64,000 nt of DNA from the NCBI RefSeq assembly GCF_000003815.2, contig NC_049980.1, forward strand, positions 16,630,021 through 16,694,020, given 5' to 3'. This document shows positions 31,161 through 62,400 of the stretch, piece after piece. Position numbers and translations under genes: made by a program. This DNA comes from Branchiostoma floridae (Eukaryota > Chordata > Leptocardii > Amphioxiformes > Branchiostomatidae). Under the pieces are notes generated by a model that was not told the origin of the DNA, made no database searches, and saw only the letters and a list, made by a program, of their open reading frames with translations. Numbering within the stretch: position 1 is the stretch's first letter; each line of letters begins with the position of its first letter.

Positions 31161-31755
31161 CATCTGATAGTTTCCTAATCTAGCTGCTTGAGTCACTACC
31201 ACCTTACCTTCATCAGCGATATCAGGGTTATTACATGTACAGGTCAGAGGTTAAGAACTGCACTGCACCTAAGTACTGCATCTTGCACAAGTGATGGATG
31301 CGATTGCCTCGTGGCCTTATTAGCGAGCGACTTTATTGTCTCGTTATTGAAGACAGAATTTCTTTCTTTAGCTGCAGAGTAATTTGGCGGGATCGGGATA
31401 ACGGTACAATAAGGATTCATCACCAGCATTGCATCGAAGGTCAGACGAAAGTAGGTCATTGTGCATACGCGGATCAGTGCAAAGCCCGTGCCTCTCACAT
31501 TGCCTCAAACAATATGAACGTTTTCCTTTCTTCTTCGAAATATTATTGATTTCGTTCGTCTGTATTGTTACTGTCTTTCCATACTTTTGATTGATGGGTA
31601 ATGTTGCTTCGGAACTAATCGAAGAAGGGTGGCTAGAATACAGAGGTAAGAACATCATGCATGGGAAAGCAATATTTCATGTTTCTATATTGGTCAGCTT
31701 ACGTGATAAGATTACTGAACAGAAATCTGTCTATTTTTCAGACTTCTGAAGAACG

Positions 31756-35961: not shown

Positions 35962-38959
35962 GAAATAAAACAAATACCGTTGTATGACGCCACATGTGTA
36001 CTGTGATGACTTACTATATCAGCATGATATTCCATTGATGTTATCGGGAATAAAATAATCTAAGGATTTTCCTTCTTCACCCACAAGGGCAGCGGACTCG
36101 CTGCGTTATTCGCATTGCGACCTAAAATTGGACAAATCGCTCAACGAACATGTCATAGATAAAACAAATCTTTTACTCTTTGTGTATTTTGTTGTCTTTT
36201 CGGTACATTTTGCATGATATTCCATGAAATAAAGGGTGACACAAATCCAACTAGAGTTCGGGGACCTCATACCTCCATGAAATATTCATTGCTTTTTTGT
36301 GGATGGTATGTATGTTTATAGTCGGTTGTATTTGAGAGTAATGGTTATAAATGTTATGGGAAAGTAGTGGTGTATTTATTTAATGACACAGAGGATGTCC
36401 ATCTGATTAGTAATTAATAAAATGTGACACTTAATTGTGTAATGTGCGTTTAAGAGGTCGATGGCATATAGTAGCGTGGTGTTCCTTAAGCTTGATGTTT
36501 GGCATTTAAACTGTCTAAGGTTGTCAGCATTATTGAGGTTCGACTATGTGCCTCAGAGCGGTGTGGTGGAAGGAAGTTGGGAAACTCAGAAAGAATAAGG
36601 GATGTGGCCAACTTTAGTCAGATGGTGATTTGATTTTCCACCAATATGTCATAACATCAGCTGTTCACACGGTATAAAATCGAGATGCACACTTTCCTCT
36701 GACAGCCCTACACCAACTGTAAAATGAATACTTGGTTCCAACCCTGTCTGCTAAAAAAACAAGTACCATTGGCTACGAAATAGACAACTAACAACTGTCC
36801 CTTATCGTAACGAAATCAGACCATCTGTATCGCCCATAAAACTTCTGACACCCAACCCATCTAAGATGAGAGGACCTAATGGCATTTTAATGACCATGTC
36901 ACTCAAATCAGCAGTACAGTATGTGAGACATCCATACCTGTTAAGCATTACTGTTAAATGTACCTCAACTTCTTACAATTATACTTACGCTTCACATCTC
37001 CATGATATCCTAAGCAGACATAACTAAAACTAATTATCATATTAAAAAACTCGGGGTTCCCCAAACAGCTGTCATACAAATCACCTCACTATCTGCTTGG
37101 AGCTAAGCCCATTAACAAACACTTAAAGCACGATGCCTGTTCCAATATATCGCAGATATAGGGGTGATTTCTGATATTATCACATTGATTATAACGACAG
37201 ATACGGCGCCCAAAATCTCATCGATTCGAGCTTTCATCACACCCCACCAACACAACAAGTATGAAACCAATCCATCCAGCCGTTCTGGAGTAATCTTGTA
37301 CACAGACAGAGACATATAACAGAAAATATAACGTCCATGACATTTCATGGAGGTAACTAAGGTCGCAGCGAGGTTGCTTGTGTAATGGTGGCATGAATCA
37401 CTGTGGTTCCTCTTTTTTCCTTGCCTTTGACTCCGCGGAACAGTTATCCCTTCAGGTCATCACGTGGTTTAGAATAGAGAGCCTATTCTCCTTTTTAAGA
37501 ACCGTACCGAATCCTGGAATGAAACAGGCGCCAGCATTGCACATGCTACACTTTCATCACCGTGAACTGGAGTCCCGAAGCTCTGCTCAGACCAACGTGA
37601 CGAATCGAAGATCAGAAATAGCCCTGGTAGGGAACCTATTTGATTAGCCCATGGCACGACTTGCACCGCGGCTAAATGAGAGGGAAACCCCGTGAGACTA
37701 CCAATAGATGCCATAAGATAAAGAAGAAGATGGGATCTTTTAATTACATTACGACAGTGTTTGGAAATTTGGGCCTGTCCTTTGGGGAGGGGAGTGAGCG
37801 ATGTCGGAATAAGAATCGTTTTCCATAGCTCACGGAGGCAATCGGTGAGCATTGGTGGAGAACAAATGATTAAATAGTTATTTCTGCACCACGGGAAGTG
37901 TCATGGAGATTCAGGTCAGACAACATTCAACGTTTTTGCTGGAGATAAAAAGAGAGAACTACTGGAGAGAGACATAGTCTGGACTATGGCGTATCTTAAA
38001 GTTGGTAGATCTGACTTGGATCTTTGTGCATACATATGGAATATGGACTATAAAATAACAGTCCGTACTCTAACTGAATTGAGGTGCTTTGGTAAATCTA
38101 TTCTATCGAAATTACTGACAACGTTTAGTACCTTTAACATATGTAAGAGTCATGTTTTCAAGCGAAAAGGATTTGGTTCGACTCGTCCTGACCAACTTTT
38201 TATCAGTGGGCAATTTATTCCGAAGCTGTTTAACTTCAGAAAAGCGTTTGTGATTCTCCCACGGCGTAGGTTTATGAGTTCCACAGAAGGAACAGTAAAG
38301 TTGCTAAGTTTTCTGCTGACCCATTTCTACTCAGGCGTTCAAAGCCCAGCTGAAGTCGTTGCCGCAAATCGCGACAAGACCAATAATGACACTTGTACGA
38401 ATCTGCTCCAGGCGCCAATGGTAATTACCATTCATTAACAAGAAACTCTGTCGAGCTTATTGCTGACTGTTTGACCCCGCTACAACAGCCTCTATCGACA
38501 GCACTCACTTTTGCAAATGGCCCAGTTTTGATGCTGCATTGGTGCCCTCTTGGAGCCTTTGACGTCTTTACTTTCGCACGGCGCTGAGGAAAACGATCAA
38601 TTGATAGTGGTGGAGGCAACGTGGGGGGGGGGGCACAGTTTCATCTCAGAATTCATGAATCGATAAGGCTTAAAAGATGGAATTCAGATGCCCGAAAGGA
38701 ACGGCGAGAAGGGGATCACAAAATGTCCAGGACAAACAAAATTGAAGTCCTGGCAGCTTTCCTTCTATAGCAGGAGACCTTGAACTTGACCTTTGTCGTC
38801 CAAAGACGTACTCATTAGATATCATCGCAATCCATCCATCAGCCATATCAATTCTTAAGCTTATCATAAATATCCTGAAACACAATCAGTTGCACACACA
38901 ATTGGAAAGGCCGACATTTGGTGATCACTCAGCAAATACAGCATATTTCAGCCATCTCC

Positions 38960-42949: not shown

Positions 42950-43980
42950 CCGATTTTCACTCGATGTGCTGACCGAAAGCTGAGTGTGATTTACTACTTT
43001 GTTATATGGATCTGAAATTTGGAGCTAATTCAAAAGTCCTAAATTTTGTCCTACTGAAAGGGTGCACTTGAAATTTTGTAAACACTCACTTAATGTTCCG
43101 AAAACTGCATCTAACCTTGCTGTACTCGCTGAATTAGGGAGGTACCCTATCCAACTGGAAGCCTCTCTAAACGCCATCAAATATTTCATTAAAATTTAAC
43201 AAAATGTGTCAGCTGAGAGTCTGCAGGCAGACGCTCTCTTATATCAGCTTAATCTAGATTCATCAGGTACTAAATGTTGGGCATCTGGTGTTCGCAAAAC
43301 TTTGGAGGAGTGTGGTTACCCTTTTGTTTGGTAAGCCCGTAAGTCAACAGATCCAAACATATCCCATCTAATTTCTGCAATCCACCAACGACTGAAGGAT
43401 ATTTATTTCCAGAATTTTCTAACCAACATTCATAATGATAATAAAGGTTTACGTGCGAAAAACAAACTCCGAACATACAGACTACTGAAATCCATATACA
43501 ATGAAGAGCAGTATTTGAAAATTACAAACATTCGGCACAAAACTACCATTGCTAAACTAAGAATCAGTTGCCACCGACTGCGAATTGAATCAGGAAGGCA
43601 CAACCGCACTCCTCTAGAACAAAGAGTCTGCCAATTTTGTACCTCAAACATGGTAGAAGATGAAGTGCACTTCATTGTTGATTGCGATGTGTATGCCAAT
43701 GATAGAAATACTCTATTTAGCTATGTAGAAAGTAGATTCCCTCATTTTAGACACATGAGTAGCACTGACAAGTTAATATTTCTTATGCGTTTTGACAAAC
43801 CGACAATAGCGAAACCCATACAGTCCTACATTTTCACCATTACCAAGAAGCGAGAAGAAGCCGAACTTTCGTATGTTAGACTAGATTTGTGATACTTTTA
43901 TATGTATATATCCTGACTTGTTCTGACCTGTACTTAGCTCGGTTGGGCAAAATTGTACAATTAAAGTCTTCATTCATTCA
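42950..43980 (+). pseudogene. LINE remnant: C-terminal end of a reverse transcriptase ORF
   Basis: In one frame from about 42,990 the translation contains LLYGSEIWS, HLKFCKHSLNVPK and NLAVLAELGRYP, the region after the reverse transcriptase palm in CR1/L2-like and related non-LTR retrotransposons. In-frame stops interrupt it, for example just after LLYGSEIWS, near 43,197 and near 43,333. From 43,515 to 43,892 it stays open and includes a Cys-Cys-His-Cys zinc-finger-like motif (CQFC, then H and C within about 16 residues). The 3' end is AATTAAAG followed by an ATTC tandem tail. The insertion is 5'-truncated and dead. Confidence 0.85.
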
Positions 43981-44287: not shown

Positions 44288-47200
44288 TTAGATCTTTTTT
44301 GTGGTGGGGGCGGGGTGGAGAGCCTTGTAATGATCCAAAGCCTTCTGCGCGATCTCGCGCCCTGCCTGGGTCATGTCGAACATGGTGAGCGGGCTGTCCA
44401 GCGAGAAGGCGTAGGTCTCCCCGAACAGAGTGGCCGTCACCGTGGCGCTGGTGTAACCTCCGACCGTCGCGTCGAAGGAGCTTCCGTCCACCAGAACCTG
44501 GAAAGGACAAGCGCTCAACATGTTGATTTGTAGATTCGGGATAGTGTAACAACAACAAAAAAGTTACATGTACAAAATTGTATATTATGTTTTCTTTGTG
44601 GCAGGGGATACGTCAAATTCCATCTGTATTGTCGTTGTTTTTATGAGCAGGGCTAGCCACAGTAATAGCCACAGGGTAGTTGGACAACCCTTGCCATGAA
44701 CAGCCAAACCAGTAAATAGAATAAAAAAAGCTACACGACACAACACATCAGTTTCAGCTGCGCGACACCCTAGATCTACCTTCGCAATACCCCAGATCTA
44801 TCATCGCCACACCCCAGATATAGCTGCGTGACACCCTTGCTTGGCAAGCGCTAGCACATCCCTGCTTCAGGTCAATGAAATCCCAACGACAACCACCACC
44901 AGCTTTGGTACATGAATAATATACCTTCCATGTGATCTTACCTGGTTAATGGCATAGTTCTGGTTATCCGTGGGCATGGTGGTTACCCAGTAGTTCTGTT
45001 GCATTGAGCCTTGGTAGTCAGCCATGGCCGCCTGGAACGCGCTACAGTCTGGTGAAAGAAAACACATAACTGTCACATAAAAAGAAAATTGCCGAAGAAC
45101 CAAACTCGTTACGAATACTACGACTGACACGACACGAAAAATAAAAAAATTATGTACACTTTGCGCCAAAAGCACGGGCCATTGACACTGTTTAACTACT
45201 TTGCCAGCACTGCAAAGCGGCAACGATGATGATGATGATGATGTCACTAGTACGGACTACTTACACTGTTCCTCCAGGTACTTGGTGTCACAAACGTTTC
45301 CACAGGACGAGGCGTACAGCAGACAGGCGTTGCCACCCTCATTCTGGAGCTGAGAACAAGTTGGTTCACTGCGCACCTGGCGTTTGACGTGGTGCTGCAG
45401 AATGGCATTCCTCAGTCGACGGTCTGCATGGACACCATAATACAAAAATGTAAACACTTCCTTTCCGTACTTAACCCAATTTTCTTATCCCACAGTCCAA
45501 GACTCAATCAAGCCAATCCAGGCCGGCAGCACAACTCGGACACTTCACGAGTGGCGAATATCCGTGGCTGTACTAAAACATCTGTTTCTGCAACAATGTA
45601 TTGAAAAAAAGGGCATGAGCCGCCCTCGTGACGAATTCTTCTTCTAATGGGTCAGTTAGTGAAAAAATTCTAAATCTTGCTGTTCCAATGAGGCGCTAAT
45701 CAGAAAATCAAGACATATCAGACGTACTGAAAAGGCCGCCAAAAAGGTCTCCGATGCCTTGTATAGCGCCTCCGATGGTTCCGAAGACGCCGTCGACGAG
45801 AGCACCACCAACGTCCCCGATGCCACCGAGGATGCTGCCGCCAACACCGAGAACAGCCTCGCCCAACGAACCAGCAACGTCCTTTAGTACAACACAAAGT
45901 TGTTGATTGGTTATAACGTTAACCAGCAATGCAGGTGAGGGATATTGTTATATCCTCAATCTAGACGGTAACAGATTCCTCATTACTTAATCATCAGGCA
46001 TATTGATTGTCATCGAAGCAGCCTGTATCACACCTCGATGTAGACAACAAAGAAGTATGTTGGCCTTACGATAGGACACAACCGAACACAACTATTAGTA
46101 TTTTAATGCCAAGGCAAAAGCTAAGTAGTGTGAAACAGAAAAAAAACATCGGCGTACCGTAACTCCGTCCCAGATGCCTGTGCCTGCTTCGATAGCGTCT
46201 CCGCCAATTTGTCCGAACACGTTGCCGACCGTTTGAAATGTGTCCAAGACGTCGGTTCCCGCCTCTACAAAGAGGCTGCCCAGCTCATCGAGGTGGAAGA
46301 CATCGGCCACGAAGCCAGGTACGCCAGCGGCCACATTGAAGGCCGAAAAGAGTTGGTCGATCTGGCTGCTGAAGAAACCTTCCACCTGGAACAACGTGAA
46401 CACGGCTGTGGTGAGTGTGATGTCATGTTTAGAGAAGTCCTGTACACTTGAATGACAGTGCGTTTGACCGGCACCGGCCTCTATTTCTGCAAGCAACGTG
46501 TTTCGCTAGTAGTACCAATAGCTATATCCAAAAGTGTCTTTTACTGATTTGGTGGGTTTGAGTATATATATACAATGCAAAAATGTTGGAAGCATGGGAT
46601 GATACAACTCTACAATCAACACAAAATAGCTAAAACATTAAACCGTGGTCGATGAATGCAAGTCTACAACACTCTGACAGTGTACCACCCCTCCTTATCT
46701 AGCTGCGTGCCACACCCACCTGTTGGAGGAGGAAAGCCCACAGACCCGGGCTGCAACTCTCGGCCTTTTCCTGACATTTGGTCTCCACACAAGTCTTACA
46801 GGGGCCCTGAAGGTAGGTCTCGATTGTACTGGTGCATACGGCCTGTGTCTCGTTCACCTAGACGTTAACAAAGCGATCGTGAGAAATCAACTCAAAACGA
46901 GAAATTGAAGATCTTATACCTAAAGTTATGACATAATTAGAGTTTTTTTTTAATTCCTTGACAAAAGATGCCACACTCATGTCCATTTAATGCAGAAATG
47001 CAATTCTCTCAGCTGAACCGTTCCAACTATAATGTTATACATAAAGCGAAGAACAGATTAGCCTAGGGAGACGAGGCCTCGAGCTCAATGAAGCGGTCTT
47101 GCAACTTTATACACCGCCTTTCTTTATGTCACATATGTCTCTTACCAGTTTTGCGGCATCAACAAGCGTATTTCCCGCGGTCATGATTTCATCTTGAAGG

Positions 47201-47614
47201 AGACCAAGGCCAGCATCTCGGAGAACTGTAGGAAGACATTATTCTGTCACACAAGACATATTAGAGTATATAATATTCGGCAAGCTGAGAGAAACATTTT
47301 AGAGACGTTTTGGATTCCCTTGTAGGCTTCTATCTCTGATAATTCTCATTTGAAATGCAGAAGTAGTTTGGAAAACTTGACCAGGCACAGTTCATGTAGG
47401 CAGTGTGTGGTGTATTCAACCATTAGAGAGCTGAGCTCCTTTAAATCATCTTTAGATTCCTTATCCAATATATGCTCAGATTGTGCGGAAGTTTGTGTGG
47501 GTACTTACGCTTAATGTTGGAGTCCGGCAGCGATATGAGCCCGGCCTGTCTGCGGACGGAGTGCACCCCGAACACCGAGCACACCAGCAGGGTCAGAGCC
47601 AGTAACTTGAACAT
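44288..47614 (-). CDS. Gene A: secreted clusterin-like protein, 393 aa
   Basis: Eight exons join in frame with GT-AG borders: 47509-47614, 47146-47225, 46720-46857, 46158-46385, 45728-45881, 45265-45423, 44942-45048, 44288-44497. Residues 1-18 are a signal peptide (MFKLLALTLLVCSVFG), followed by RR. Block one has C70, C82, C85, C90 and C97 (C-x11-C-x2-C-x4-C-x6-C), preceded by the glycosylation sequon NET. Residues 109-184 are probably helical. Residues 185-235 are a hydrophobic Gly/Asp-rich repeat. VKRQ (248-251) is a basic cleavage site. Block two has C258, C269, C276, C280 and C290. YWVTT and then a strand/helix end (LFGETY, REIAQKALDHYK) follow. Vertebrate clusterin has the same order: signal peptide, five Cys, cut site, five Cys, and a C-terminal strand and AEKAL helix. 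I infer an extracellular disulfide-linked two-chain chaperone-like protein. The model is firm; the family name is an inference. Confidence 0.85.
44764..44836. repeat. 22-bp tandem repeat, about 3.3 copies
   Basis: Three 22-base units and a partial fourth in the last intron of gene A, each with an (A/C)CACCC(C/T)AGAT core. They lie inside a stretch (44,646-44,876) whose ends, CAGGGCTAGC and GCTAGCACATCCCTG, are loosely inverted, so the array may be the inside of a small MITE. Confidence 0.75.
45225..45243. repeat. (GAT)n microsatellite
   Basis: Six GAT units in intron 6 of gene A. Confidence 0.9.
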
Positions 47615-47655
47615 CGTGCTTGCCAGTGGATGTGGCCGAACATTAGAGCACGACC

Positions 47656-47663
47656 TATTTATG
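47656..47663 (-). promoter_or_regulatory. TATA-like box of gene A
   Basis: CATAAATA on the minus strand, about 42 bases upstream of the ATG at 47,614. A start site about 30 bases downstream would leave a very short 5' UTR. Genes B and C have comparable boxes. Confidence 0.5.
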
Positions 47664-48114
47664 CCTTGCGTGGTGTCAAAGGTGAGCCTTTTGGTATTTG
47701 CACTGTGGGAGGAACAAACGTGCGTAAACCTTGGAGGTATGACTGATTAGTTAGTTATCGATAACTTTATTTAACCCTAGTTCTCGGGCGGTAGGGAACA
47801 TTGTCACCTGTTACCACACCCTCCACGCAATTCGCACTCATTCATACAAACACATTCCCTATTTTGGTTTTTGCAAAATACAGCATCGTATCGCATTTTT
47901 TTACAAAGAAATCGCCGATTCACCCGTCCTCTTTGAAATATTTACCATCATCGTCTTTTGAATGGTAAATTTTATAGTCAACATGCCCGGGGCACTCTGT
48001 TTATGCATTGGCATAAAGAGAAAGCCTCGCTCGACTTGTAGCAGAATTTTCAAGCAGCCACATACAATATATACGACAACCCGTCCGGTAGCAAGCCAGC
48101 TGAATTTTTTAGGT

Positions 48115-48450
48115 TAATTACCTTCGACAAGAAGGTTATATTTGGGGTAGTGTCTGTATGTCTGTGTGTGTGTGTGTTTGTAGAAGATCAGCATAACTGG
48201 AGAACGCCTTAATGGATTGTCTTGATATGTGGTATGTGGGTAGATCTTGATGAAACCTCCAAACGATTAGATTTTAAGCTCCCTAGCGGCATGCTATGGT
48301 ACTGCAGCGGAACTTTCGGGTTTGATATCTCGCGTTCTGGACATGCTGCGGTGATGTTTTTGAGTGGTACCGTCTGGAGGCGAAAAGTAAGTGGTGAATC
48401 TTTGGGCCCCCTAGCGGGGAACTGCAGGAGCCGGTTTAGTTTCAGGCTTT
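48115..48450 (+). repeat. Probable interspersed repeat
   Basis: It starts with a small stem (ACCTTC, five bases, GAAGGT), has a (TG)n tract, and continues with GAGAACGCCTTAATGGATTG and the motif CTCCCTAGCGG, which recurs as CCCCCTAGCGGGGAACTG. I recall similar text as a dispersed repeat in lancelet-like genomes. I did not search for it, and the class is unknown. Confidence 0.4.
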
Positions 48451-48874
48451 GATGGAGAATAACTCAAGAAGGGATTAACGGATCAATGTGCTTTTTGGCA
48501 TGCAGATAGCTTAAGTGATGCTTATACAAATCAGAATCTACTTTGCATGATTATTGAATTTTATAAACCTATTCTGCTCCATTATAGGACTATTGCAACA
48601 TGTGGTATTTGTAGTTGAGCAAGAGAAAATGTTGATAGATAAATATCATGCAACAAAATACCTAGTTTGTATATTTAATGAGAAAATGCTATAATCACAC
48701 TGTGGTAAATGACTGGAATTCTTCCCTGGAAGATGTGTACAGAAGGACATCATTGAACATTAACTATGTAAATGAGGACCTCATTTGCATGAAATATCAG
48801 AAAATGCGATTAAAGCCTTCTTTCTGAACATAGATTGTGTACATCTGTTATTTGGGTGTACTTCATCCATGCAT

Positions 48875-48974
48875 NNNNNNNNNNNNNNNNNNNNNNNNNN
48901 NNNNNNNNNNNNNNNNNNNNNNNNNNNNNNNNNNNNNNNNNNNNNNNNNNNNNNNNNNNNNNNNNNNNNNNNNN
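48875..48974. other. Assembly gap, 100 N
   Basis: A run of exactly 100 N, about 390 bases beyond the predicted stop of gene B. Confidence 0.99.
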
Positions 48975-49103
48975 AGGTGTAATCATCACCTGTTGTACAA
49001 GTATAAAAAATCATTATGTTACTGAAACAACTATGTAGTTCATTTGACACATAGTCTTTAGGTAGCTGTAGGATTCTTGAGCAATGTATACCTTTGGTCA
49101 TGG

Positions 49104-49174
49104 TTTATTTTAAAGAAAGGATCTGTTTTCATTCAAGTTACATGCATTGCATACACTTTCATGGAGGTTTTATT
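49104..49174 (-). terminator. Candidate poly(A) signals of gene B
   Basis: AATAAA on the minus strand at 49,169-49,174 and again at 49,104-49,109, about 195 and 260 bases after the predicted TAA at 49,367-49,369. Their position argues that the transcript ends before the N gap and that the short C terminus of gene B is real. Confidence 0.5.
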
Positions 49175-49366
49175 TCGCGGGTGAATCATTAGTACAGTAA
49201 AAGCACACATCAGATATTGACGATGTTAAAATTAATTTGTTGTCACTGCGAGCACTCATGGAAGGTTGCAAATATGTGAGGTAGACGTGAGTAGCAAATT
49301 CATTTAGCTGGTGTGTCACGCCGAACGGCGGTTATACCGGCAATATAGATACAGATTTAAGCCAAT

Positions 49367-52300
49367 TTATATAATCTCACCAAACAGTCGCACTTTCACC
49401 GCCGCATTGGTATAAGAGCCAGCACTGTTCACGTTGTTGGTGTCCACCGCGATCTGGAAGGTAAACATGCCGGTATAGTTAAAGACCAACAATCAAATTT
49501 CAATTTATATCAGAACAATCCCTCGTTTATGGCAGTTCAGATGGTTTTCTTCTGTACAGGTCCAACAAGAATTGACAAAGAAGCAAAACATTACAGGTGA
49601 ACATCAGATATGCTCAACAGTATGTTCGGTATCTCCATAATAATTGCATCGTTGCCTCTTTATTAACGTTTTGTGAATAATGATCTGGCAAAATGATGTA
49701 GAAAGGTTCGTTATATACTTGTTGGATGATGAAGTCCTGGTTTTGAGGGACATTTGTTATCCAGCCATTCTGCTGTTGTGAGGTTTGGAGAGCGCTCACA
49801 GCAGAGTTGTAGGTCGGACAATCTGGGAGAAGATACACATGTATGGGTTACTACATTTTCTGGTCATTGTGTATCATACGATTCTGACAGAAAAAAATAT
49901 CACTTTACACAGTCATAGATAGTACTATCAAAACAAAGTGGACAAAACCTTGGTGGGTTGGAAAACACACAGCATGACATGTTTTCAGACAATGTCAGAA
50001 CGCCATATATTACAAACAAAAACAGCTGAATTTCAAGAATGCTCACATGCGCTTTGCAAATACGACACATCGCATGATGTGCGGCAAGCAGACGAGTCGG
50101 CATATTTCAGGCACGCCTGTTCACGCTGACTCTCCAGTTCGCTGCAGGTCGGATCCGAACGGCGAGCACGTGGTCGGACAGCTCTCTTCCTCCGTCCCCA
50201 TCCTCCTAAGTAAGTAAGGAAAATAAAGGTGACCATTGAGTAAAAAAAAAAAAAAAAGAACCCAACATTTTTGCAACCGTGACATCGTCGACTTCTCGGG
50301 GCAAGCTGCCGTGGACATGATAGTTTTGCCTATGTAAAATACCTACATTTGACATTTTACAGGCAGTTGTCATCATCCAATTTTCTTGTAAAGATATCAG
50401 CTAATTTTAGCATAGGTACAAGCAAATGTCTATGTTTTTACTTTTGAGTCCGAGCAGTGTTAGTCCTACCCGCATAAACACTGACGATGGCGTAAGAATA
50501 GTAAAAGGTACCCACATATTCAGATGAAAAAATGTTTATCCGTTTAAAGCGGGTATCTCACATGATTGCGGCGTCACTGTGTTCTATTATATACTTCTAA
50601 ATTGGATTTTTTGTTGCACTTGACTTCATAATGCCTTAATGGAAACAATATGCAAAAAGTTTTTTATCGATGAAATTCGTCGAGCGCTCTGTAGACGCTC
50701 AGCAGCTTCAGTGAAATACCCGCTTTTAAAGTGGTGTTAACCTTACCGCCAAAAACACCACCGATAGCGTCCCCGATACTGTCGATAGCACCTCCGATGG
50801 CGTCGCCGACATCGCTTATCAGGTTCCCTGCGGCGTCCACGACGTCACCAGCGGCGTTCAGAAGATCCTCGCCAGCGTCAACTATCACGTTAGCTGCACT
50901 CTGTCAAGGACGTACAAATTCAAAATCTCTTCATTTGAATCACGTGCGTTTAGTTGCGTACCCATAATATTGTAGTGATGAAAGAATTCAAGGGGAAAGC
51001 TTTTGCATGTTTGGCTTCATATCTACGTTATGAAATGTTGTCAGACACAAAAAAGGGAAGGGTAAGAAAGAGACACATGAAATCTTAGTATAGTATCTGG
51101 GAAATGTATTTCCATGTGACGAAGCCCATGAAACAAGTTGGTTTTCAGCAAAAATCATTAATATATCTGCATCTACGTGGTTATCTATCACTGGCTGATA
51201 TTCATTATCCCCCACCTGCACGCCTGACCAGACAGTTCCTGCCGCTTGATTGATGGCAGTGGACACCGAAGACAAGGCGCCGTCAGCAAAATCTTCCACA
51301 GCCGAGGCGACGTCTTCAACATGGAGGACGTCGTTCCAAACAAAACTGGCAGCATCATTGAACGCAGACTCCAGCTGATTACGGAAGGAAATACCATATA
51401 TATGATATATACCACTTACAATGGGGATTAGGGATGTTGCTGTAACATGTTTGCATCATTCTAGGATTACTTTTAAACGAGATGACATGTGCAAAGATGT
51501 CACAAGTCATGAAATTCACATATTTTACCACTAAGGAATTATGATACATGTACTTAATATGCAAACATATATGTGGAAAAACGCCTGCATGGACAGACAG
51601 ACAGACAAACAAACAAACAAAATATACATTCCTTTTTGATAAAGCTTTTGATTAACATTAACACTAACCATCTGACCGATAGCCTCCCACAGATCCGGTC
51701 GACAGGAGTCAGCCTTGTTCTTGCACTGTTGTCTCACACAGGAGGCACAGTTCGTCTGGAGTTTGGACGTAACTGTCTGCTCACAGCCTGGAAGAGCGGC
51801 CCTGGCAGCGTCGGATTTAGCCTTCAGGTCATTGTAGGCTGCTGTCATTTCATCCCGCAAGTAGGCAGCACCACTTGGCTGGAAAGCTGAGTAAAAGGCA
51901 GTTATGTTCATTTTGTTTGCATGTTTAGGATTGATACCCGATTTTATAGATTTCATACTTTTGTTTATTGGCGCATATAAAAGTTAGGATGAAAATAGAA
52001 TAAGTTGGTCAGTGATAGATATAAAAGAAAAAAATAAATATAGTCTTGGGATAATGTAAAATAGTATTCATAACTCCGTAGAGATCACCCTCTTGACTTG
52101 TGTGCATGCAATGATAGTGATTCTAACAAGGATGCAAAAGTGAAGTCAGTAACAGATCAAAACGTGTTTGGCTGGTAGAATTTGCCACGATGGTTGTTGC
52201 CTATTACTGATATCGTATGGATTAGATAACTTTCTTCTGTACTTGTTATCACCATATGCATGTATATAGATCAGTAAATTTAAGTGATACAGATTGCAAT

Positions 52301-53598
52301 GCGCAAAAATTGAAATTGCATCATACTGTGTCATTTGGTTGTATAATACCTAATTGTGCATTTACGTGCATATCTAAGATTGGCACAAAAACCTGGATAG
52401 GAGCACAGACAAACCTTCGACTGACTACCCGAAGCTAACAACAGTGAGAGTTACATGTAATGATATCGATACATACCAACCACAACCGAGGAGTGGAAGC
52501 TCTGGGTTGCACGCACTGCACGAGCCTTGTTGGACGAACCTTGTAGGCGCCAATACACAAAACAAGACGTAAGTCGTTTTTTCTTAAAGTCCTTGGCATG
52601 CAAGTTGTTGAATTATGCAGCTCCGAGCTTGAAATAATATCATAACGTGAAAATGGAAATGGCGCGCTCACAAAAAAGTACCAACCTTTCAGGGGACGGC
52701 GAAGTCGGCCGTGGCCTCCTGCTAGAACGGCGCCTGCCAACAGCACCAGCAGGAATGCCTGTCATTGAGAAGAAAACATTTGACTAGTAAGCAATATAAT
52801 TGCTTTCAATGCTTGGAAGGCTATATTGTGATGGTCGTTGAGGAATGTCGTCGTTTCAAGCGGCCTTTCCAAGGGCACAACATCGATGGCATATCAGGGA
52901 ATTCTAACCCAGAACTTCTGGGTTCTGGGCCAAACACCCTAACTGTTACGCCAAAGCGACACCACGTTTCATCCTATAGGGAACGCCAGGAAAGACCCAG
53001 GCAGCTTTGATCACAGCTCTAGCTTCTTTCTCACCTATCTTTTACCCACACCCACCTACCCAACCACCTAGCCTGTGTTGACACAATCTCTCGCTGGCTG
53101 GGGCAGCGGCGATTGTAGGGCCGGCCGCTAGGGGTGCGATTTTAGTCAGGCTACCCAGCCACGCACTAATGTTCAAAAGGTCGTCCCTGATTCTTAATTC
53201 AATGGACACTAATATAAGGTAGCATGCAAGTGAAACTATACAAACGACAACGGGTGGCCTAGGATTTTTAAAATTTTTTCTATCAGATAACTTACAAAGC
53301 TAAGTAACCAGAGACACTTCTTACAGTCATTGTCGGGTCCTAGTTCACTTATTTCAACCATGACGAAAACTATGTTTCTATCTACATGTATTAGATAATT
53401 TAAGCCACTTATCACTATCAAATAATGCAAAGCGAGGGGCATTTCAGTTTCTAAAGCTGCCAATCCCAACAATACCGAAGAGTAGACTACGACTTTCTCT
53501 ATGCAGGTTTACACTTAACTCGTTCGCTTTCAGGCATAGCTTTGTAATAACGTTACAGGTAATACAGATAAATTAGAAAAAGTCAATACCTTGTACAT
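49367..53598 (-). CDS. Gene B: shortened secreted clusterin-like protein, 341 aa
   Basis: Nine exons join in frame: 53590-53598, 52686-52758, 52477-52539, 51669-51886, 51216-51374, 50747-50900, 50047-50205, 49719-49822, 49367-49453. A 9-base coding exon supplies MYK, so an intron splits the signal peptide (MYKAFLLVLLAGAVLAGG). Exon 3 (63 bases, phase 1-1) has no counterpart in A or C and could be an optional cassette. Block one is C83, C95, C98, C103, C110 (C-x11-C-x2-C-x4-C-x6-C). The middle exon is 69-84 bases shorter than in A and C. RRKR (230-233) is a classic furin site and RARR follows. Block two is C246, C257, C266, C270, C280. The last exon follows A and C as far as LFGE and then stops (II, TAA), so about 40 residues, including the C-terminal helix, are missing. 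Function is inferred as for gene A; loss of the C-terminal helix may alter it. Confidence 0.8.
52880..52975 (-). mobile_element. SINE head fragment in intron 2/exon 2 spacer upstream of gene B body
   Basis: Read on the minus strand it gives TTTGGCGTAACAGTTAGGG, TGTTTGGCCC and GGGTTAGAATTCC, matching the order of the tRNA-like head at 40,532 (TGGCGTAA, TTAGGGTGTTT, CCC, B box). At its centre is a perfect 19-base palindrome, 52,906-52,924 (AACCCAGAA, C, TTCTGGGTT). It lies in the first intron of gene B. No SINE body follows. Confidence 0.5.
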
Positions 53599-53685
53599 CG
53601 TGCTCGTCTTGTAACTGGTGTGTATCAGTCAAGCACGAAGTTTGAAGATAGACCTATGCTAATCCTTTGCGAGGTTGCTGCGTGC

Positions 53686-53692
53686 TTTTATG
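53686..53692 (-). promoter_or_regulatory. TATA-like box of gene B
   Basis: CATAAAA on the minus strand, about 90 bases upstream of the ATG at 53,598. A start site about 30 bases downstream would give a 5' UTR of about 60 bases. Confidence 0.5.
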
Positions 53693-54984
53693 CTGTTAGG
53701 TTGTATCTGTTTGTCCTGCGTTAAGGCACATAGGGATGTTCAACAGGATGTCGGAACATTGCTTATCAACAAGGATTGCCTCAATTTGCCGTCTCATCCG
53801 ATTCAGTCAAACAAGCTTGTGTTGACAATTTGCAAGCAATGATAGATAAGAGTAGTGACTTTTACTGATCGTGGGCATTCTTGGACTTGTTTTGAATAAA
53901 ATAATTGAGTAAAATCATTAACACTAAATACAATATTTTTACATTCGAGATGTGATCTAACATCATAGGGAAATCCAGTACTTTACGTGTTAGAGTGGGC
54001 CGGGAGGGACAGAGAGGCAGAAGTTTGCTGACAATGTCAATGGGGCATTAGGAACAAAATGGATGTTTCGTAGTATCCAACATGGGCAAATCATAGTGTT
54101 CCAAGATGATGAAGCATAATGTTCCACGATGAGACGAACAGTTTCCAATTTCGGCGTGTTAGTATGCAAGATTGGGAAAGCTTCTTAGACAGTGTTTTGA
54201 ACAGTTGAGTTTTTCAATTTTGCTATTCTGAAAGTATTACTAGTGTTATATATCAGTGGTTTGAAAAACATATACGTCGATTTGGTTCTTAAAAATGTGC
54301 ATTTTCACGCATTGGCCAGCGTTATTAAGGACTCTTGCTTTCGGAATAGAGTGTAGATGAATTTTCGTTACCTTTTTAAACTACAACGCTGTAATTGCTA
54401 GAACGAGGCGTTACTCGAAGTCCAAAACATTCAAAATACAAAAAGGAAAACAGTTCATCAACAACGCCCGACTTATATTGCTAGATGATAATATGATGAA
54501 GTAACCTAGCTACATAACTTATCTTAGCTACGTGTAGGCAGGTTATTTTTTCAGAGCTAAGCATTTTGTGCACGTGCGCTCAGCTTTACATTGCTTTTTT
54601 GATGTAGGTGCTACATGTAGGTACATGTAGACCTGTGACCCAGAAAAAAATTTCACATTTTTGACCTAGCAGGAACCTCTTTTCAAAGAGGTTGGCGGGG
54701 AAGATTGTGATTCTATCATATCTCCCGTGTTCTGTCTGCACTTCCCTCCAGGTGATCACAATCTTTCCCACCTACATCTGCTTGGAGAGTGATATAGACC
54801 CATGAGCATGCACCTCTCATAACTTAAACCGAGCGATCGAGCAAAAATGCGGCATTTGATGAGTGTTTGTTCCCTTTGCAAATAAAAAAGGCATTAATGT
54901 GAGAACCCTACACATGTCGATCTAATGGCATGCAAATGCAGTCACTGTGTCAATTCGGACGACACCAGGCGCCTGTTCCGTGGG
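53693..54984. other. Head-to-head spacer between genes B and C
   Basis: About 1.3 kb separate the two TATA-like boxes. I see no coding exon. An imperfect inverted repeat lies around 54,675-54,775 (AAGATTGTGAT and ATCACAATCTT). The spacer must hold both promoters, so shared enhancers are possible but not visible by eye. Confidence 0.5.
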
Positions 54985-54993
54985 TTTTAAAAA
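54985..54993 (+). promoter_or_regulatory. TATA-like box of gene C
   Basis: TTTTAAAAA. A start site about 30 bases downstream falls at about 55,015-55,020, at or after the ATG at 55,017. This favours the second ATG (55,044) as the translation start. Confidence 0.5.
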
Positions 54994-55043
54994 GCGTGTA
55001 AGAAGGACCTCTTCAGATGCACTCGCTGCCCATCGTGCCAGCA

Positions 55044-58000
55044 ATGTGGAAGCTGCTGTGCCTGACGATCCTGGTGTGCGCGGTGTCCGGGGGACCCCAG
55101 GTCCGCAGACAGGCTGGTTATTTTCCTATCCAGGGACCCAGTCTTCAGGGTAAGGTTGCCTTGAGGTGTTTGCAATATCATGCGCAGGTGGCCATCCAAA
55201 CTTTTGTAGCTTCTTAAATAATGATCTCGCGTGCGTTCTGTCAACGGCCTTTTTGTCAGCGTAGGATTTTGATTCATCTTTCACTCTTTTTATGGTGAAG
55301 TTGCACCAGTCGACGTCTTTTTTATCTCTGCCTTTGCCATTAGCTAGGTTCTGGATGCTGTCTTAGTTTGTTGAGACATACACGTACAAATATACCATTT
55401 GTCACCACAGTGCTACGCCAAGCCAGTCTTCCCATCCTCCAAGACGCCATCAAAGTCGCCGGAGAAAGTCTCGTCTCTGCCGCCGAACAGGTGGGGCTGT
55501 AATGTTAATGGCAGTGGAATAGAAAATATGTTTGTGCTATGCATATTTGACAGTACTACTAGGACATTTTTTGTGCTATGCATATTTGACGGTACGTAGG
55601 ACACGTAGATTTTCTAGACTTTGCTCTATTTCTCGGGATAACCCATATGACTAGGCAGTTGTAATGTTGACTTGAAAAGCTAATTTTTCAAACAGAAATT
55701 ATGCACATTCTAAAATATCATATCGTTGCTTGGACACATCCTCAAATATCATTACAAAGCCAGAGAAACGTATACTTCAACGTCATCCCTAAGCAACAAG
55801 ATGTGTCGATGGGCTGAATTAAGAACGTAAAGAAACAGCTTAAGAGTCTGAACAAGATCACCCAAAAAATTATGATCCTCATTTGCGAAACCTTTCTTTG
55901 CTCCTTTACAATACTTAGGTGAATACAACAAAGCCAGACTGCATCACCATCATAGAGAGCCAGATCGGAGGTGCATGCAAGGCATGTGTGGAGTCACGAT
56001 GTAAGAGTAAAGCAGACAGCTGTGCTCCGAACCTGTGGGAAGCCATCGCCCAGAAGGTAATGTTTTCTTATTTAGGGTTGCTCAACACTTATTTTGACAA
56101 TGTGATTATGAAAGTCTCATCATTAAACCAAGAAATCAGAGCTTGTGTGTGTATATTACAGTACCAAGGACAGTACTAACCAAGAAGTGCAAAAAGAAAC
56201 AAAACAGACAGAAAGCATTATAACATTAAAAGAGTCCCCTGCAATGTCAAGCAATAAATGAATAAAACCATGTTTACCATAGAGCAAATCACATTATGAT
56301 CACCCTCCAATGTTGACCCATCATAATATTACATGACATGAAAATTTTCTAATTTTTAGGTAGAGGAGTTTTTCACAGATAAGATTCCAGAGTTGTTCAA
56401 CTCAGCTGTGGATGCTGTCCTTGATGCTCCCGATGCCATCATTGATGCCCTTCACCTGAACGAATTGGATGACTTCATACTTGACATTGGGACTGAGCTT
56501 CTGAACACTGTCTTGGATGTTGGCAATGTGTTTGCGAACATTGGTGATGAGGCGCTAGATACACTTGGCAACCTTGGGACCAGCATTTGGGATGGCATAG
56601 AGGTACCTCTAAATATCCCATTTATTTCACAGCATATTAGCCCTATACATGTACATCAAGATTTAACCACATTCAATACAAAATATTTCCATGATGTCGA
56701 TATACCTCACCCATCCTAACTGCACTATGAACTGTATGAAAGGGGTGCTGTAAAAAGAGGAAATACAGCAACTGTTGCCACTAACAGACCATTGGTATGG
56801 TCCTATTTTGTACTGTAATCTACATTGAGAAAAGGTAATGCCTCTATGTAATGTATACATCCTGAATATGAGCAAAATGAACATAGCAAACTTTAACCCT
56901 GTATCATTGGACAGGATGTAGGTGGCTTCCTGGGAGATACAGTCCTGGATGTAGGTAACTTCCTGGTGGATGGCATTGGAGACATTGGAAACATTGCTGT
57001 CGACCTGGGAGACTCCATAGTGGGAGCCATTGGGGACCTTGGAGATCTCTTTGGTGGCCTGTTGGGTGAGTCGTAACATACACATGAGTCAATGTATAAC
57101 GTTGGTTCACCTTTATCCACATGGTAACCTATATCCGTCGTACATAAAATAGGTTATTTGGGGATTGTTAAGTCGATAGAAGGTAGTTTCACAATGCAAT
57201 ATCTTGAAAATTTTAACATTTGAAACCCACGTCGTTGACCTAAAATCTCTAAATACTCAATATTTTAAAACAACGAATTTAGGTTACCCATGGATTAAGG
57301 TGAACTGTTGTTACATGCCTGCTTTTTCATGAAAATGCAAATCAACAAGCAAGGAAGAATCAACTGCTACAGACCCAATCAGCAGGGAAAATTGAGAGCA
57401 AAATAGACAAATATTATAAAATGACAAAGGCAACGATCTGCATATTCATGCCCCATGCCGAATAAACTATGCCATTTGTTTGTAGGCATCAGGTTCATGC
57501 CTCCTCGTAATTTAGAGCTCGCTGACAACTCGGCCGATCTAAATTCTTGATTTGTAAAGGGAGCTTAAGGAATTACACCATGTTGTATTCAATATGTAAC
57601 ACTATGTGAACATTTTGTCTTTTATTACATGCATATCAATTTCATGGCCTTGTTGAAGGGAACTTCCAAGATATTTGTGCATATCTGTGCCTAGTTAACA
57701 GTCTAAAACAAATACACTGTATAACGTTACATTTTGTTCTTCATTCTTTGATTAACAAAATTCACATATCCTGTCCCATGGAGGAGCTATTAACTGACAA
57801 ATAGAGCTCTACAAATGGGTAGTTTTGAAGCTATAACGTTACTTACATGTCTCAGACAATATCCCTTTTAAGTGTCTGAATGTTTGAATGTACATGTGTG
57901 TAGCTCCAAGCTGTCCATACTTTAGAGATGTGTTGAAGACTGTACCACCGTACTGTTTCCATACAGGCAAGAAGAAGAGGGATGTTGTTTTGGCATATTA

Positions 58001-59311
58001 CGTGAAGCGCCAAGTGAGACGCCGACGTGAGGCCCAAAGTCAAGTGCGTAGTGAGCCATCTTGTTCTCAGCTGCAGAATGAAGGAGGCAGTGCCTGTATG
58101 GGCTTCATGTCATCCTGTGGTAGCATCTGTGACTCCACATGGCTGCAGCAGCAATGTAAGGACCCACATGTACTGACATGTTGTATATTATTACAGCATG
58201 GAAGTTAATGTTCTCTAGTTGCTATTACTTAAAAATTGATTTTATGGAAATTAAACTTTTCTCATTATCCATCTTAATATTCTTATGCCATTCGGCCATG
58301 TAAGATTGCTGACAAAATAACAAGTTGTAGGATTGTGCAGTCTGTATTTGATGAGGTAACCTCTTCTGACTGCCTCTAATATTTCTTCACTTTGGTGTCA
58401 TGAAGCAACAGTCCTTCTGATAAACAATCATGTACTTACTCTTCTATCGGCAGACTGTACCACATTCAACACGGCTCTAAATGTGTACCAAGCAGCTCTT
58501 CAGGACCACTACTGGGTCACCACGATCCCTGCTCAGAATCAGGACTTTGTCATAGACCAGGTATGGTGTAGCTGTTGCTTCTGAAGTGAACACTAACAAT
58601 CCTGTAGGCCTTCCAAAGAACATTTGACAAACATAATAATCATAACAGTTCACATAATAATCATAATTACTTACCTTCTATGATGATATACACCTTAATG
58701 GGAGCTTCCTCCTATTTGCTAAGTCAATACAGAATATGAAATAAACGCTGCACTATCCTTCAATAATACCACTAATTGAGAGATTCAATGAGTCAACTGA
58801 AGGTAAAATACTTCAGCAAAAATATTGGGTCATCACAATAATGCTACACATTTGATGATCGAAAACTATACAAAACACTGCAAACAGTAATGCATGAGGG
58901 CATTAGTCAATATACAATTTGTTTTTATTTCAAACAAATTCAATATTTTTCCTGCAAAACATATGTTGAGCATCACCTTCTTTCTCTACAAGTCAAAGCT
59001 CATAAAAGAAAGAAATCCGCCACCTGCAAATGTAAAAGGGAACTCTGCATTCCGATCAATTTCTCATCATATCTTTCTTACTGCAGCTGATGGTGGATGG
59101 AACCTCCATGGACTTCACCACTGGAGCTTACAGCCGTGTTGACGTGACAGTTACAATGTTCGGGGAGACCTACACCTTCCCCTTGGACAACAGCCTCAGC
59201 CCGTTTAACCTGGCCCCTGCTGGACCAGAGATAGCCCAGAAAGCACTTGACCACTACAAGGCTAACCACCCTCCTCCTTCCACTAAGGTGTACGCATATT
59301 CACACAGTTAG
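55044..59311 (+). CDS. Gene C: secreted clusterin-like protein, 412 aa
   Basis: Eight exons join in frame: 55044-55149, 55411-55490, 55919-56056, 56360-56602, 56915-57065, 57967-58155, 58454-58560, 59087-59311. Exons 1, 2, 3 and 7 have exactly the lengths seen in gene A (106, 80, 138, 107). I start at 55,044 (MWKLLCLTILVCAVSG) rather than 55,017, because this gives a normal signal peptide aligned with A and fits the TATA position. Block one is C70, C82, C85, C90, C97, the same residue numbers as A, with the sequon NTT before it. Residues 109-189 are acidic and helical, starting VEEFF. Residues 190-239 are a GD/GN repeat. Basic sites are KKKR (241-244), KR (253-254) and RRRR (257-260). Block two is C272, C283, C290, C294, C304. 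YWVTT, LFGETY-like MFGETY and EIAQKALDHYKANH follow. The order matches clusterin. The 3' signal AATAAA is at 59,339. Confidence 0.85.
55531..55590. repeat. Direct repeat in intron 2 of gene C
   Basis: TTTGTGCTATGCATATTTGA occurs at 55,531 and again at 55,570, 39 bases apart. Confidence 0.85.
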
Positions 59312-59475: not shown

Positions 59476-62400
59476 GTCCTACAGAAACCCTTTTGTTTGG
59501 TTTCTTCTCTTTTTGCTGATCCTCTTTTCTCAAGCTGCTGTTCGTTTTCTCCAGGATTTGGTAGATGTCCAGAGCATCTCCTGTGAGGAACAAAACATGC
59601 CTAAATTACAATTTGCACTCAATGAAATCAATGTTTTGTCAAAATTTATCTACAGTTAGATGATGTACATCTTCTTAATGAGGGGTGCGTATGACAAATA
59701 GAGAAATATAGCTTTGCCAAAGCTACATGTTTTGCAAAACACAATGGTACAGACCACTTCTCAATATACTAACATGTATTATGCCTAGGTTACACATAGC
59801 CGACTTTGGCTCCCGAACACTAGCCGACTCTTAGCCGACCCAAGTCGGCAGTAGTTCGGGAGTAGTCTGACCAGTTTAGGCCACGCCTATTTTTTAGTGC
59901 CGAACATGTCCCGAACACCTCCCGACCAGTAAATGACTTACTCCCGACTGTGTCTCAAATGCTAACTAACCTATCACCAACCATCCCGACCTCTAGCCGC
60001 AGACTGCCGAATCACTCCTGACTGATCCCCAACCGATTGCCGACCCTTTTTCGACTTGAAATAGACATAATCAGCGATTTTCAAAAGAGTGCTCATTTTC
60101 ATTTTTAATCAAGAATGTCCTTTGTTCTATTTGTAAACATCACCAAGAGATCAAATTTAGATCACATATAGCTCCAGTGCGGCATTTATGGGTCTTTTTG
60201 CTTTTGGCTGGATGTCGGTCGTGTGAAGTTCGGGAGTGATTCGTCTACGTTCTGGCAATAGTCTTTTTGCTTGGGAATGAGTTAGCAGAGATTTGTCTAA
60301 GGTCTTGGGGTGAATCATTGGTAAGTTGGAAACAATCTGGTAGTAAATCAGCAATGTTTATGGCGTGGTTAAGATTTAATTTGACTGCTGACTTACTCCC
60401 GAACACCAACCGAACACTAGCCGACAGTGCCGACCACCAGCCGACCACCAACCGACCCATTCCAGAGTTGCCATTCAGAGCCGAATGTTTTGAACAATTC
60501 AAAACATTCGGATGGAGCAGCCGAACACCAGCCGACTCAGCCCAACGCCAGCCCAACGCCAGCCGACTCAGACGGACGCCAGCCGACTACAGCCGACTAG
60601 CTCCCAAATCACTCCTAAACCATAGTCGGGAGAGAGTCGGGAGCCAAATTCGGCTATGTGTAACCTAGGCATTAGATTCTTTAGCATGCAGAAATTTAAT
60701 GCCAGTGGCCCCCCAATGCAGACCCTAAATTTGCCCTCAAAAGGACGAATGCAACCCTTAGATGTACACATATATTACAACTAAAGACATGTTGTTAGCA
60801 ACTCCTGTGCAGGGAGAAAATGTATGCGTGACCACTGCAACTGATTCAATTTCATTACTATCAGTTTCCCCACCTGGTGGAATGCCATACCCCCGGGTGA
60901 GTCCATGTGGGTTGGAGGGGGTTTTACAGTCCATGTTCACCTCTTTCCTCATGACGGTGTCCACATCCACAGCACTGAAGAAGGCTACAGACTGAGCATC
61001 AAAAGAACAAACTTTGAATTTTGCATTGCTGGGGTTGCACAAAACTGGGTGGGATGTCAATAGACACTTAACTCAGTAGCCTTTCTTTCTGACACTGTTC
61101 TACTCGGAAGGTTTTTTTGCACCCTGCAACATAAGAAATATCTATAATGTATTCTCTACAGTTCTATCACTTCAAGAAATAGTAATCACTTAACACATAT
61201 CATGTATCTTCTGAAAGCTTGCATAATTATCTATTTTGATATACATTTGTATGCAGCAGTATCAGTCTATTCTAGAGGACTCATGACAAATGAAGAAAAC
61301 AGCTACATGTATAGAATAAGCACATTTTCTGTCCTTCCAGATACATGTAGCCTTACCTGAGGTAGATCATTCATGCCCAGTCTGTAGGCAAACATGCTCC
61401 GTGTCAGCAGGTTGGTGATTTGTAGGGCCAGGGCTGCCCGATACCTGTCCTCACTCTGCACAAGGTAGCGTACCTGGACAGGTAACAGTAGTCTTGTCAA
61501 CATAATACTTGATGTCTTTTGACAGTGATAAGGAAAGATGCATGGGCATGGTGATTCCTTGCTTAAAGTCACTAACATAAGAGATTGTACATATCACTCC
61601 TCTGTTTCATAACTATTTAAGGGTTTTAAACAGTATGTACATTAAGCAAATACAAAAGCCTCATAAATCATTCCTGATTACTCCTGTAACAACTGTACCT
61701 GATGACATTGGGTTTTACCATGAAATGTTAAGACTGAGTACCTCATCATGGATGCTGATGCAGAAGCGCCCATCAATGTTGTACTTGTCGAAGAGCCAGC
61801 GCATACACACCAGCATGAGGTGCAGGTAGTCCACAGCTGAACTCTGGACAACCCAGTTTACACGACTGGTGACAAACTACAAAAAAACACAACAGGGACA
61901 TGAAAACAAAAAATTATCAAAGTGATGTCACCATTCTGAATATTTCAGATGCAATTGTTGTGAGTTTTATAAAAAAATGTGTTGGAAGAGTGAATCAAAT
62001 GCATCACTACAAGGAGATATAGAATTAGACAAGCCATTCAGTATGTCTTCTTTTATGTTTTTGTTAGCTCACCAGCATGTTTCAACAGTAAAAAGGTACA
62101 CCTTACCTCACCCTTAACATAGGCAGGTTCCAGGGCTCTACTGATGCGGCAGTCCAGAACAGGCGTACGCGGTTCTGCAGAGTTTGCGATGCTTTCCAAC
62201 TTGTTGAACATTTCCGACTCAGTCCCACCTACCCAACGTCTACCAGCAATGATGTCCAACTGGCCTGAAATGTTTACTAGTAATGTGCTATCTTCAATAC
62301 AAAGTACAATTGTGTACATGCAGGGCTCGAAATACCCACATGCCCACTTGAAAATGCCACCACATTTTGCTTTGCGCAACTTAATTTTAAACCCAGGTTG

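Follow-up and report, generated by a model that had tools for sequence, protein, structure and literature searches.

Clusterin (apolipoprotein J, the product of the gene CLU) acts in vertebrate blood as a chaperone and as a carrier of lipids, and its gene is a major risk gene for Alzheimer's disease. When the tails of human clusterin are deleted or altered, lipid-particle formation falls by ~80–90%, and deletion of the amphipathic helix alpha7 abolishes it. The tails are critical for chaperone activity too; the crystal-structure paper of 2025 which reports these results introduces the protein as a conserved vertebrate glycoprotein (PMC12527946). Here we have analysed a stretch of 64,000 nucleotides from the lancelet Branchiostoma floridae (contig NC_049980.1, positions 16,630,021 to 16,694,020; hereafter the window), where a sequence-only reading made by a model had proposed a cluster of three clusterin homologues, locally expanded outside vertebrates, at window positions 44288–59311. 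We name the three genes A, B and C. In the open-access literature on clusterin in amphioxus or Branchiostoma we have found no description of them, and in the available parts of two papers that mention both clusterin and amphioxus (PMC12313776, PMC12939704) lancelet clusterin is not the subject.

The closest described system is human clusterin itself (PDB 7zet and 7zeu; Pfam PF01093), with which the lancelet genes share a secretory precursor, two five-cysteine blocks of nearly equal spacing, and a basic motif between the blocks. Gene A (47614–44288, minus strand, 393 amino acids), gene B (53598–49367, minus strand, 320 amino acids) and gene C (55044–59311, plus strand, 412 amino acids) all have signal-peptide-like N-termini. 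The number of cysteines after the signal peptide is exactly ten in each of the three proteins, five per block; the signal peptide itself holds one more in A and two more in C. The first block, the first half of the putative disulfide domain, is encoded by exon 3 (A, 46720–46857; B, 51669–51886, an exon that also holds the N-terminal helix; C, 55919–56056). Cysteines 6–9 follow in exon 6 (A, 45265–45423; B, 50047–50205; C, 57967–58155), and the tenth in exon 7 (A, 44942–45048; B, 49719–49822; C, 58454–58560). When recomputed, the gaps between cysteines are 11, 2, 4, 6 and 10, 6, 3, 9 in A and C, and 11, 2, 4, 6 and 10, 8, 3, 9 in B, compared with 10, 2, 4, 7 and 9, 6, 2, 7 in human 7zet, in agreement with the clusterin-like spacing that had been claimed.

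The order of the remaining landmarks also appears to be that of human clusterin, i.e., an N-terminal helix, one W-V segment, and a C-terminal strand followed by a helix. The segment YWVTT (WIT in B) lies in exon 7 together with a short arm, and it was found as claimed, as were the strand LFGETY and the helix EIAQKALDHYK. Exon 8 of C (59087–59311) encodes the C-terminal strand or strands and the helix, exon 8 of A (44288–44497) gives a weak collinear match to residues 356–399 of 7zet, and exon 8 of B (49367–49453) has the strand part only and ends with LFGEII and a stop. A motif for putative furin-type cleavage lies between the cysteine blocks. The basic cleavage site described in the sequence-only reading is canonical in B (RRKR, RARR) and C (RRRR, beside KKKR and KR), but in A there is only RRLR, beginning at the join of exons 5 and 6, or the dibasic KR.

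In the Pfam scan, Clusterin (curated cut-off 23.6 bits) ranks first among the families matched by A (21.3 bits, E = 1.5e-4; residues 57–122) and by C (13.6 bits, E = 0.034; residues 61–118). Yet both scores are under the cut-off, and B shows no Clusterin match; by score, the three proteins are outside the formal Clusterin family of Pfam. The consensus of A, B and C reaches 23.1 bits (E = 4.6e-5). Residues 20–130 of A score 20.6 bits, and none of nine shuffles with fixed cysteines matches any family. When the middle part is removed, A still scores 20.7 bits, and B again has no Clusterin match. Furthermore, a profile of the three proteins aligns to 7zet with 10.6 bits over three collinear stretches (N-terminal helix, first cysteine block, and C-terminal strand-helix), of which the first and third are negligible alone (0.1 and -2.5 bits). 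This score was reached by none of 3000 full shuffles and by 2 of 3000 with cysteines fixed; with cysteines fixed and shuffling confined to windows, the numbers were 0 of 3000 (20 residues) and 3 of 3000 (10 residues). Global alignments of each protein to human clusterin give z values of 4.0–4.5 against full shuffles and 2.7–3.9 with cysteines fixed, with 0–3 of 300 shuffles at or above the observed score, and hhalign, run with the alignment of the three against the single human sequence as its one template, gives a probability of 10.5% and an E-value of 0.003. The elements of the alpha/beta roll show weak collinear matches to 7zet in A and C, and the C-terminal helix is absent from B. Overall, the Pfam best family of A and C, the consensus score, the collinear profile match and its rarity among shuffles (0–3 of 3000) support the proposal of a local clusterin expansion outside vertebrates, and A, B and C should very probably be distant homologues of clusterin.

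The lancelet proteins differ from human clusterin in the length of their arms. Counted from KEI/DEI of the first helix, the first cysteine comes after 23 residues in each lancelet protein and after 58 in human; counted from the last cysteine, the W of NWV/YWVTT comes after 19 and 55, respectively. That is, the two distances are shorter by 35 and 36 in all three proteins, as measured between anchors picked by eye, a choice that counts somewhat against our reading. The local alignment made by HMMER itself has the same 35-residue jump between the first two stretches. Between this W and the C-terminus there are 82 residues in the human protein, compared with 85, 90 and 43 in A, C and B, respectively. 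Since the shortening of a single stalk would be expected to remove nearly equal lengths from its two arms, the paired loss suggests a remodelled stalk, in which both arms of one antiparallel coiled coil have been shortened. Arm distances of 23 and 19 residues, against 58 and 55, do not correspond to the long (~85 A) coiled-coil bundle of clusterin.

The second difference concerns the part between the first cysteine block and the cut, where human clusterin has short disordered, Phe-biased hydrophobic tails. No such tails are seen in A, B and C. The place appears to be occupied by a new element, a predicted acidic amphipathic segment of ~100 residues before the cleavage site, encoded by exons 4–5 (A, 45728–46385, with exons at 46158–46385 and 45728–45881; B, 50747–51374, with exons at 51216–51374 and 50747–50900; C, 56360–57065, with exons at 56360–56602 and 56915–57065). 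From the first cysteine block to the cut there are 122–155 residues, with net charges of -13 (A), -15 (B) and -23 (C), 13–21% Gly, and 9, 3 and 5% Phe, respectively. The mean helical moment is 0.33, 0.40 and 0.40, compared with 0.18, 0.19 and 0.19 for shuffled segments, and was not reached in any of the 500 shuffles made for each. Over ~100 residues the best angles are 98.5, 99.0 and 99.0 degrees. Autocorrelation of hydrophobicity is 0.28, 0.41 and 0.41 at lag 22 and -0.02, 0.10 and 0.08 at lag 21. Because of these angles and the excess of lag 22 over lag 21, the period is that of a surface helix (3.6–3.7 residues) rather than that of a heptad coil (3.5). The lag-11 value was reached by 2, 0 and 0 of 1000 shuffles for A, B and C, and by 29, 97 and 213 of 1000 for three human segments, whose best angles are 102, 101 and 107.5 degrees. 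The "helical middle" noted earlier corresponds to this long acidic amphipathic segment, with its periodicity of ~99 degrees.

In these properties, i.e., ~100 residues at 98.5–99.0 degrees with autocorrelation at lags 11, 18 and 22, the segment is like the helices of 11-residue period in exchangeable apolipoproteins of the ApoA1/ApoE type; unlike them, it is acidic, rich in Gly, and set between disulfide blocks. When A, B and C were scanned against Pfam with E-values allowed up to 10, no apolipoprotein family profile was matched. The likeness is one of working and not of descent.

Chromosomal location gives mild further support. On the chromosome of the cluster (C2, cluster at 16.7 Mb) we have found all six genomic matches to thymidylate synthase (29.8 Mb), all four to efThoc1 (21.1 Mb), the single match to Radical_SAM_C (11.4 Mb), and both matches to Focal_AT (24.8 Mb). 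We take the Radical_SAM_C match to be ELP3 and the Focal_AT matches to be PTK2/PTK2B, and assume that these families are orthologues of the human neighbours. GULO, a member of the ALO family, adjoins CLU in vertebrates; four of nine ALO matches, the best included, are on C2, and the others are on C10, C3 and C236. TYMS and THOC1 are neighbours of human CLUL1, the clusterin-like 1 paralogue of vertebrates (gene list of an 18p interval, PMC4483272), and PTK2B and ELP3 are neighbours of human CLU (coordinates, PMC9169259); the likeness to CLUL1 is by location, in that the chromosome of the cluster also bears counterparts of the two CLUL1 neighbours. The markers cannot serve as independent proof, and we have rejected this use: given their mutual linkage, chance has to be judged from the fraction of the assembly that C2 makes up (35,136,500 of 513,431,437 bases, 6.8%). 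That is, a location that agrees with orthology, with markers megabases away, would be met by chance in ~6.8% of cases. Among the control searches, only that for DHFR gave a match, on C3. We have also observed that the Radical_SAM_C match and the best, GULO-type ALO match are less than ~0.4 Mb apart (C2, 11.36–11.73 Mb), ~5 Mb from the cluster.

Each gene has 8 coding exons, as does human CLU, whose frame occupies exons 2–9 from an ATG in exon 2 (PMC10488069). We reconstructed the models of all three genes manually from the sequence and then verified them with a script. The spliced frames are intact, and all 21 introns of the three genes are GT..AG. A and C have all seven intron phases in common (1, 0, 0, 0, 1, 1, 0), and their exons 1, 2, 3 and 7 are equal in length (106, 80, 138 and 107 bases). 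In B, there is an additional first exon of 9 bases (53590–53598), and the third exon, of 218 bases, corresponds to exons 2 and 3 of A and C fused (80 + 138). AATAAA follows the stop after 45 bases in A and 28 bases in C, but only at 192 in B. A and C are 51% identical over their aligned extent, and B and C 36%. The non-synonymous and synonymous divergences (dN/dS) are 0.38/1.98 for A–C, 0.67/3.35 for A–B, and 0.66/saturated for B–C, and the dS of A–C is near saturation. When the whole genome was searched, C gave 18 matches and B gave 12; among the best candidates that were scored, these lead to this cluster only, plus one match on C16 taken as noise. That match (E = 0.3) was rejected as a fourth gene, as it has an in-frame stop and no cysteine block. 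In the window, a match of B at 38094–38360 (E = 0.002) was also rejected, having no cysteine block in its reading frame.

As for the statement that all three multi-exon genes are complete, it holds for A and C and is doubtful for B, the last exon of which stops at LFGEII. About 390 bases beyond the 3' end of B there is a run of 100 N (48875–48974), and inside the last exon of B there is a possible donor, GTGAGA, after LFG. Considering this run and this donor, a hidden last exon is possible. B may either have no C-terminal helix or have one hidden by the assembly gap.

Based on the above analyses, the explanation as a whole, i.e., clusterin homologues that work by the mechanism proposed here, seems to us probable; for the mechanism itself, given homology, we have a guarded preference. 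The products would enter the secretory pathway, where the two cysteine blocks would pair antiparallel, and a furin-type protease would cut between the blocks to leave two disulfide-linked chains. Each arm of the antiparallel coiled-coil stalk would have ~35 residues fewer than its human counterpart. In the lancelet proteins the cut is far nearer to the second cysteine block than in human clusterin, with neither alpha-tail nor alpha7 after it; since it is so close to that block, there is no room for alpha7. Once cut, the first chain would end in the long acidic amphipathic segment as a free tail. This segment might coat lipid surfaces or shield exposed hydrophobic protein, which is the job of the hydrophobic tails and alpha7 in human. 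By this analogy with human clusterin, lipid and client binding would both be done by the amphipathic segment. The most likely role, judging from this anatomy, would be that of an extracellular holdase and exchangeable lipid-particle protein.

A number of observations weigh against clusterin homology. None of the three genes reaches the Pfam cut-off, and the match appears to rest on the first cysteine block and to be weak elsewhere. Without its middle part, C has Csx1_CARF as best family (E = 0.084) and Clusterin only third (E = 0.25). When exons are taken singly, only exon 3 of A points to Clusterin (E = 0.63), the exons of the second cysteine block match no Pfam family, and exon 8 leads to other families at chance level (DUF1810 for A, E = 0.015; Protocadherin for C, E = 0.08). 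The best BLASTP E-values to human clusterin are 0.36–0.55, and searches of PDB sequences with C and with the profile of the three did not retrieve clusterin. There is one N-glycosylation motif each in A and C and none in B, compared with six N-glycans in human. Searches of the whole genome with human clusterin and PF01093 were both empty as well, though such searches are insensitive here: GFP is known from lancelets, and the control searches for GFP and dUTPase were empty too. Family searches being so insensitive in this intron-rich genome, we have set these two empty results aside. The scores below the Pfam cut-off, the absence of Clusterin matches outside the first cysteine block when exons are taken singly, the PDB searches without clusterin and the different middle would be expected if A, B and C formed a separate secreted family, convergent on ten cysteines in two blocks and a basic processing site, with the divergent middle serving as a membrane-active or coating peptide. 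We consider such convergence unlikely, because the similarity outlasts shuffling with cysteines fixed (2 of 3000 for the profile, 0 of 9 for A), because the N-terminal, cysteine-block and C-terminal matches are collinear, and because both arms are shortened equally.

Even if the proteins are clusterin homologues, their middle could have another use, as a secreted membrane-active (e.g., antimicrobial) peptide freed by processing rather than as a chaperone or lipid-carrier tail. The segment is rich in Gly, strongly amphipathic and adjacent to basic cleavage motifs, and in B and C the tail ends at the cut. However, typical membrane-killing peptides are cationic, whereas the net charges here are -13, -15 and -23; and with a single conserved region of cleavage sites, the segment would remain attached by way of the first cysteine block. 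We therefore regard a freed peptide as very improbable. Somewhat less remote, but still doubtful, is the idea that gene B is in decay and, as a truncated clusterin-like copy, gives no stable protein any more. It would account for the end at LFGEII without a C-terminal helix, and for B being the most diverged of the three (dN is 0.67 for A–B and 0.66 for B–C, compared with 0.38 for A–C). On the other hand, the frame of B is open over 8 exons, its ten cysteines and two canonical furin motifs are kept, the splice sites in the cluster are good in all 21 cases, and the nearby gap of 100 N may hide a last exon.

If A, B and C are indeed clusterin homologues, a lancelet relative would date the clusterin fold to before vertebrates, and would serve as an outgroup when asking which parts of clusterin are indispensable. 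The natural variants, i.e., a short stalk, a long amphipathic tail, and a copy without the C-terminal helix, would help to separate what the tail, the stalk and the disulfide core each contribute. We can also tentatively imagine, without holding it the likelier course, that a protein of the clusterin fold existed already in the last common ancestor of lancelets and vertebrates, and that its client- and lipid-binding part could be swapped on a kept disulfide core, giving an apolipoprotein-like segment of ~100 residues in lancelets and short hydrophobic tails plus alpha7 in vertebrates; such a protein might have been a lipid-surface protein first, with the three lancelet copies being subfunctional.

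Several other features have been observed. Outside the window, the sequence C431 (15,083 bases) reads over its first 8,000 bases as mitochondrial genes under code 5; we take its open frames to be COX2, ATP6, COX3 and ND4, and ARAGORN in its bacterial setting found no tRNA in these 8,000 bases. In the window, on the plus strand, an open frame of 519 amino acids at 31750–33309 has a helical N-terminus followed by a Ser/Arg-rich part, with a Pfam match at chance level only (E = 0.2). Another plus-strand frame, of 185 amino acids at 43335–43892, has a terminal C-x2-C-x12-H-x5-C pattern and again only a chance-level Pfam match (E = 0.058); it is presumably retroelement-like. Finally, the region 59800–60640 is rich in degenerate 11-base repeats (CCGAACACCAG, CAGCCGAACGC), with arrays detected by Tandem Repeats Finder at 60399–60455 and 60518–60598.

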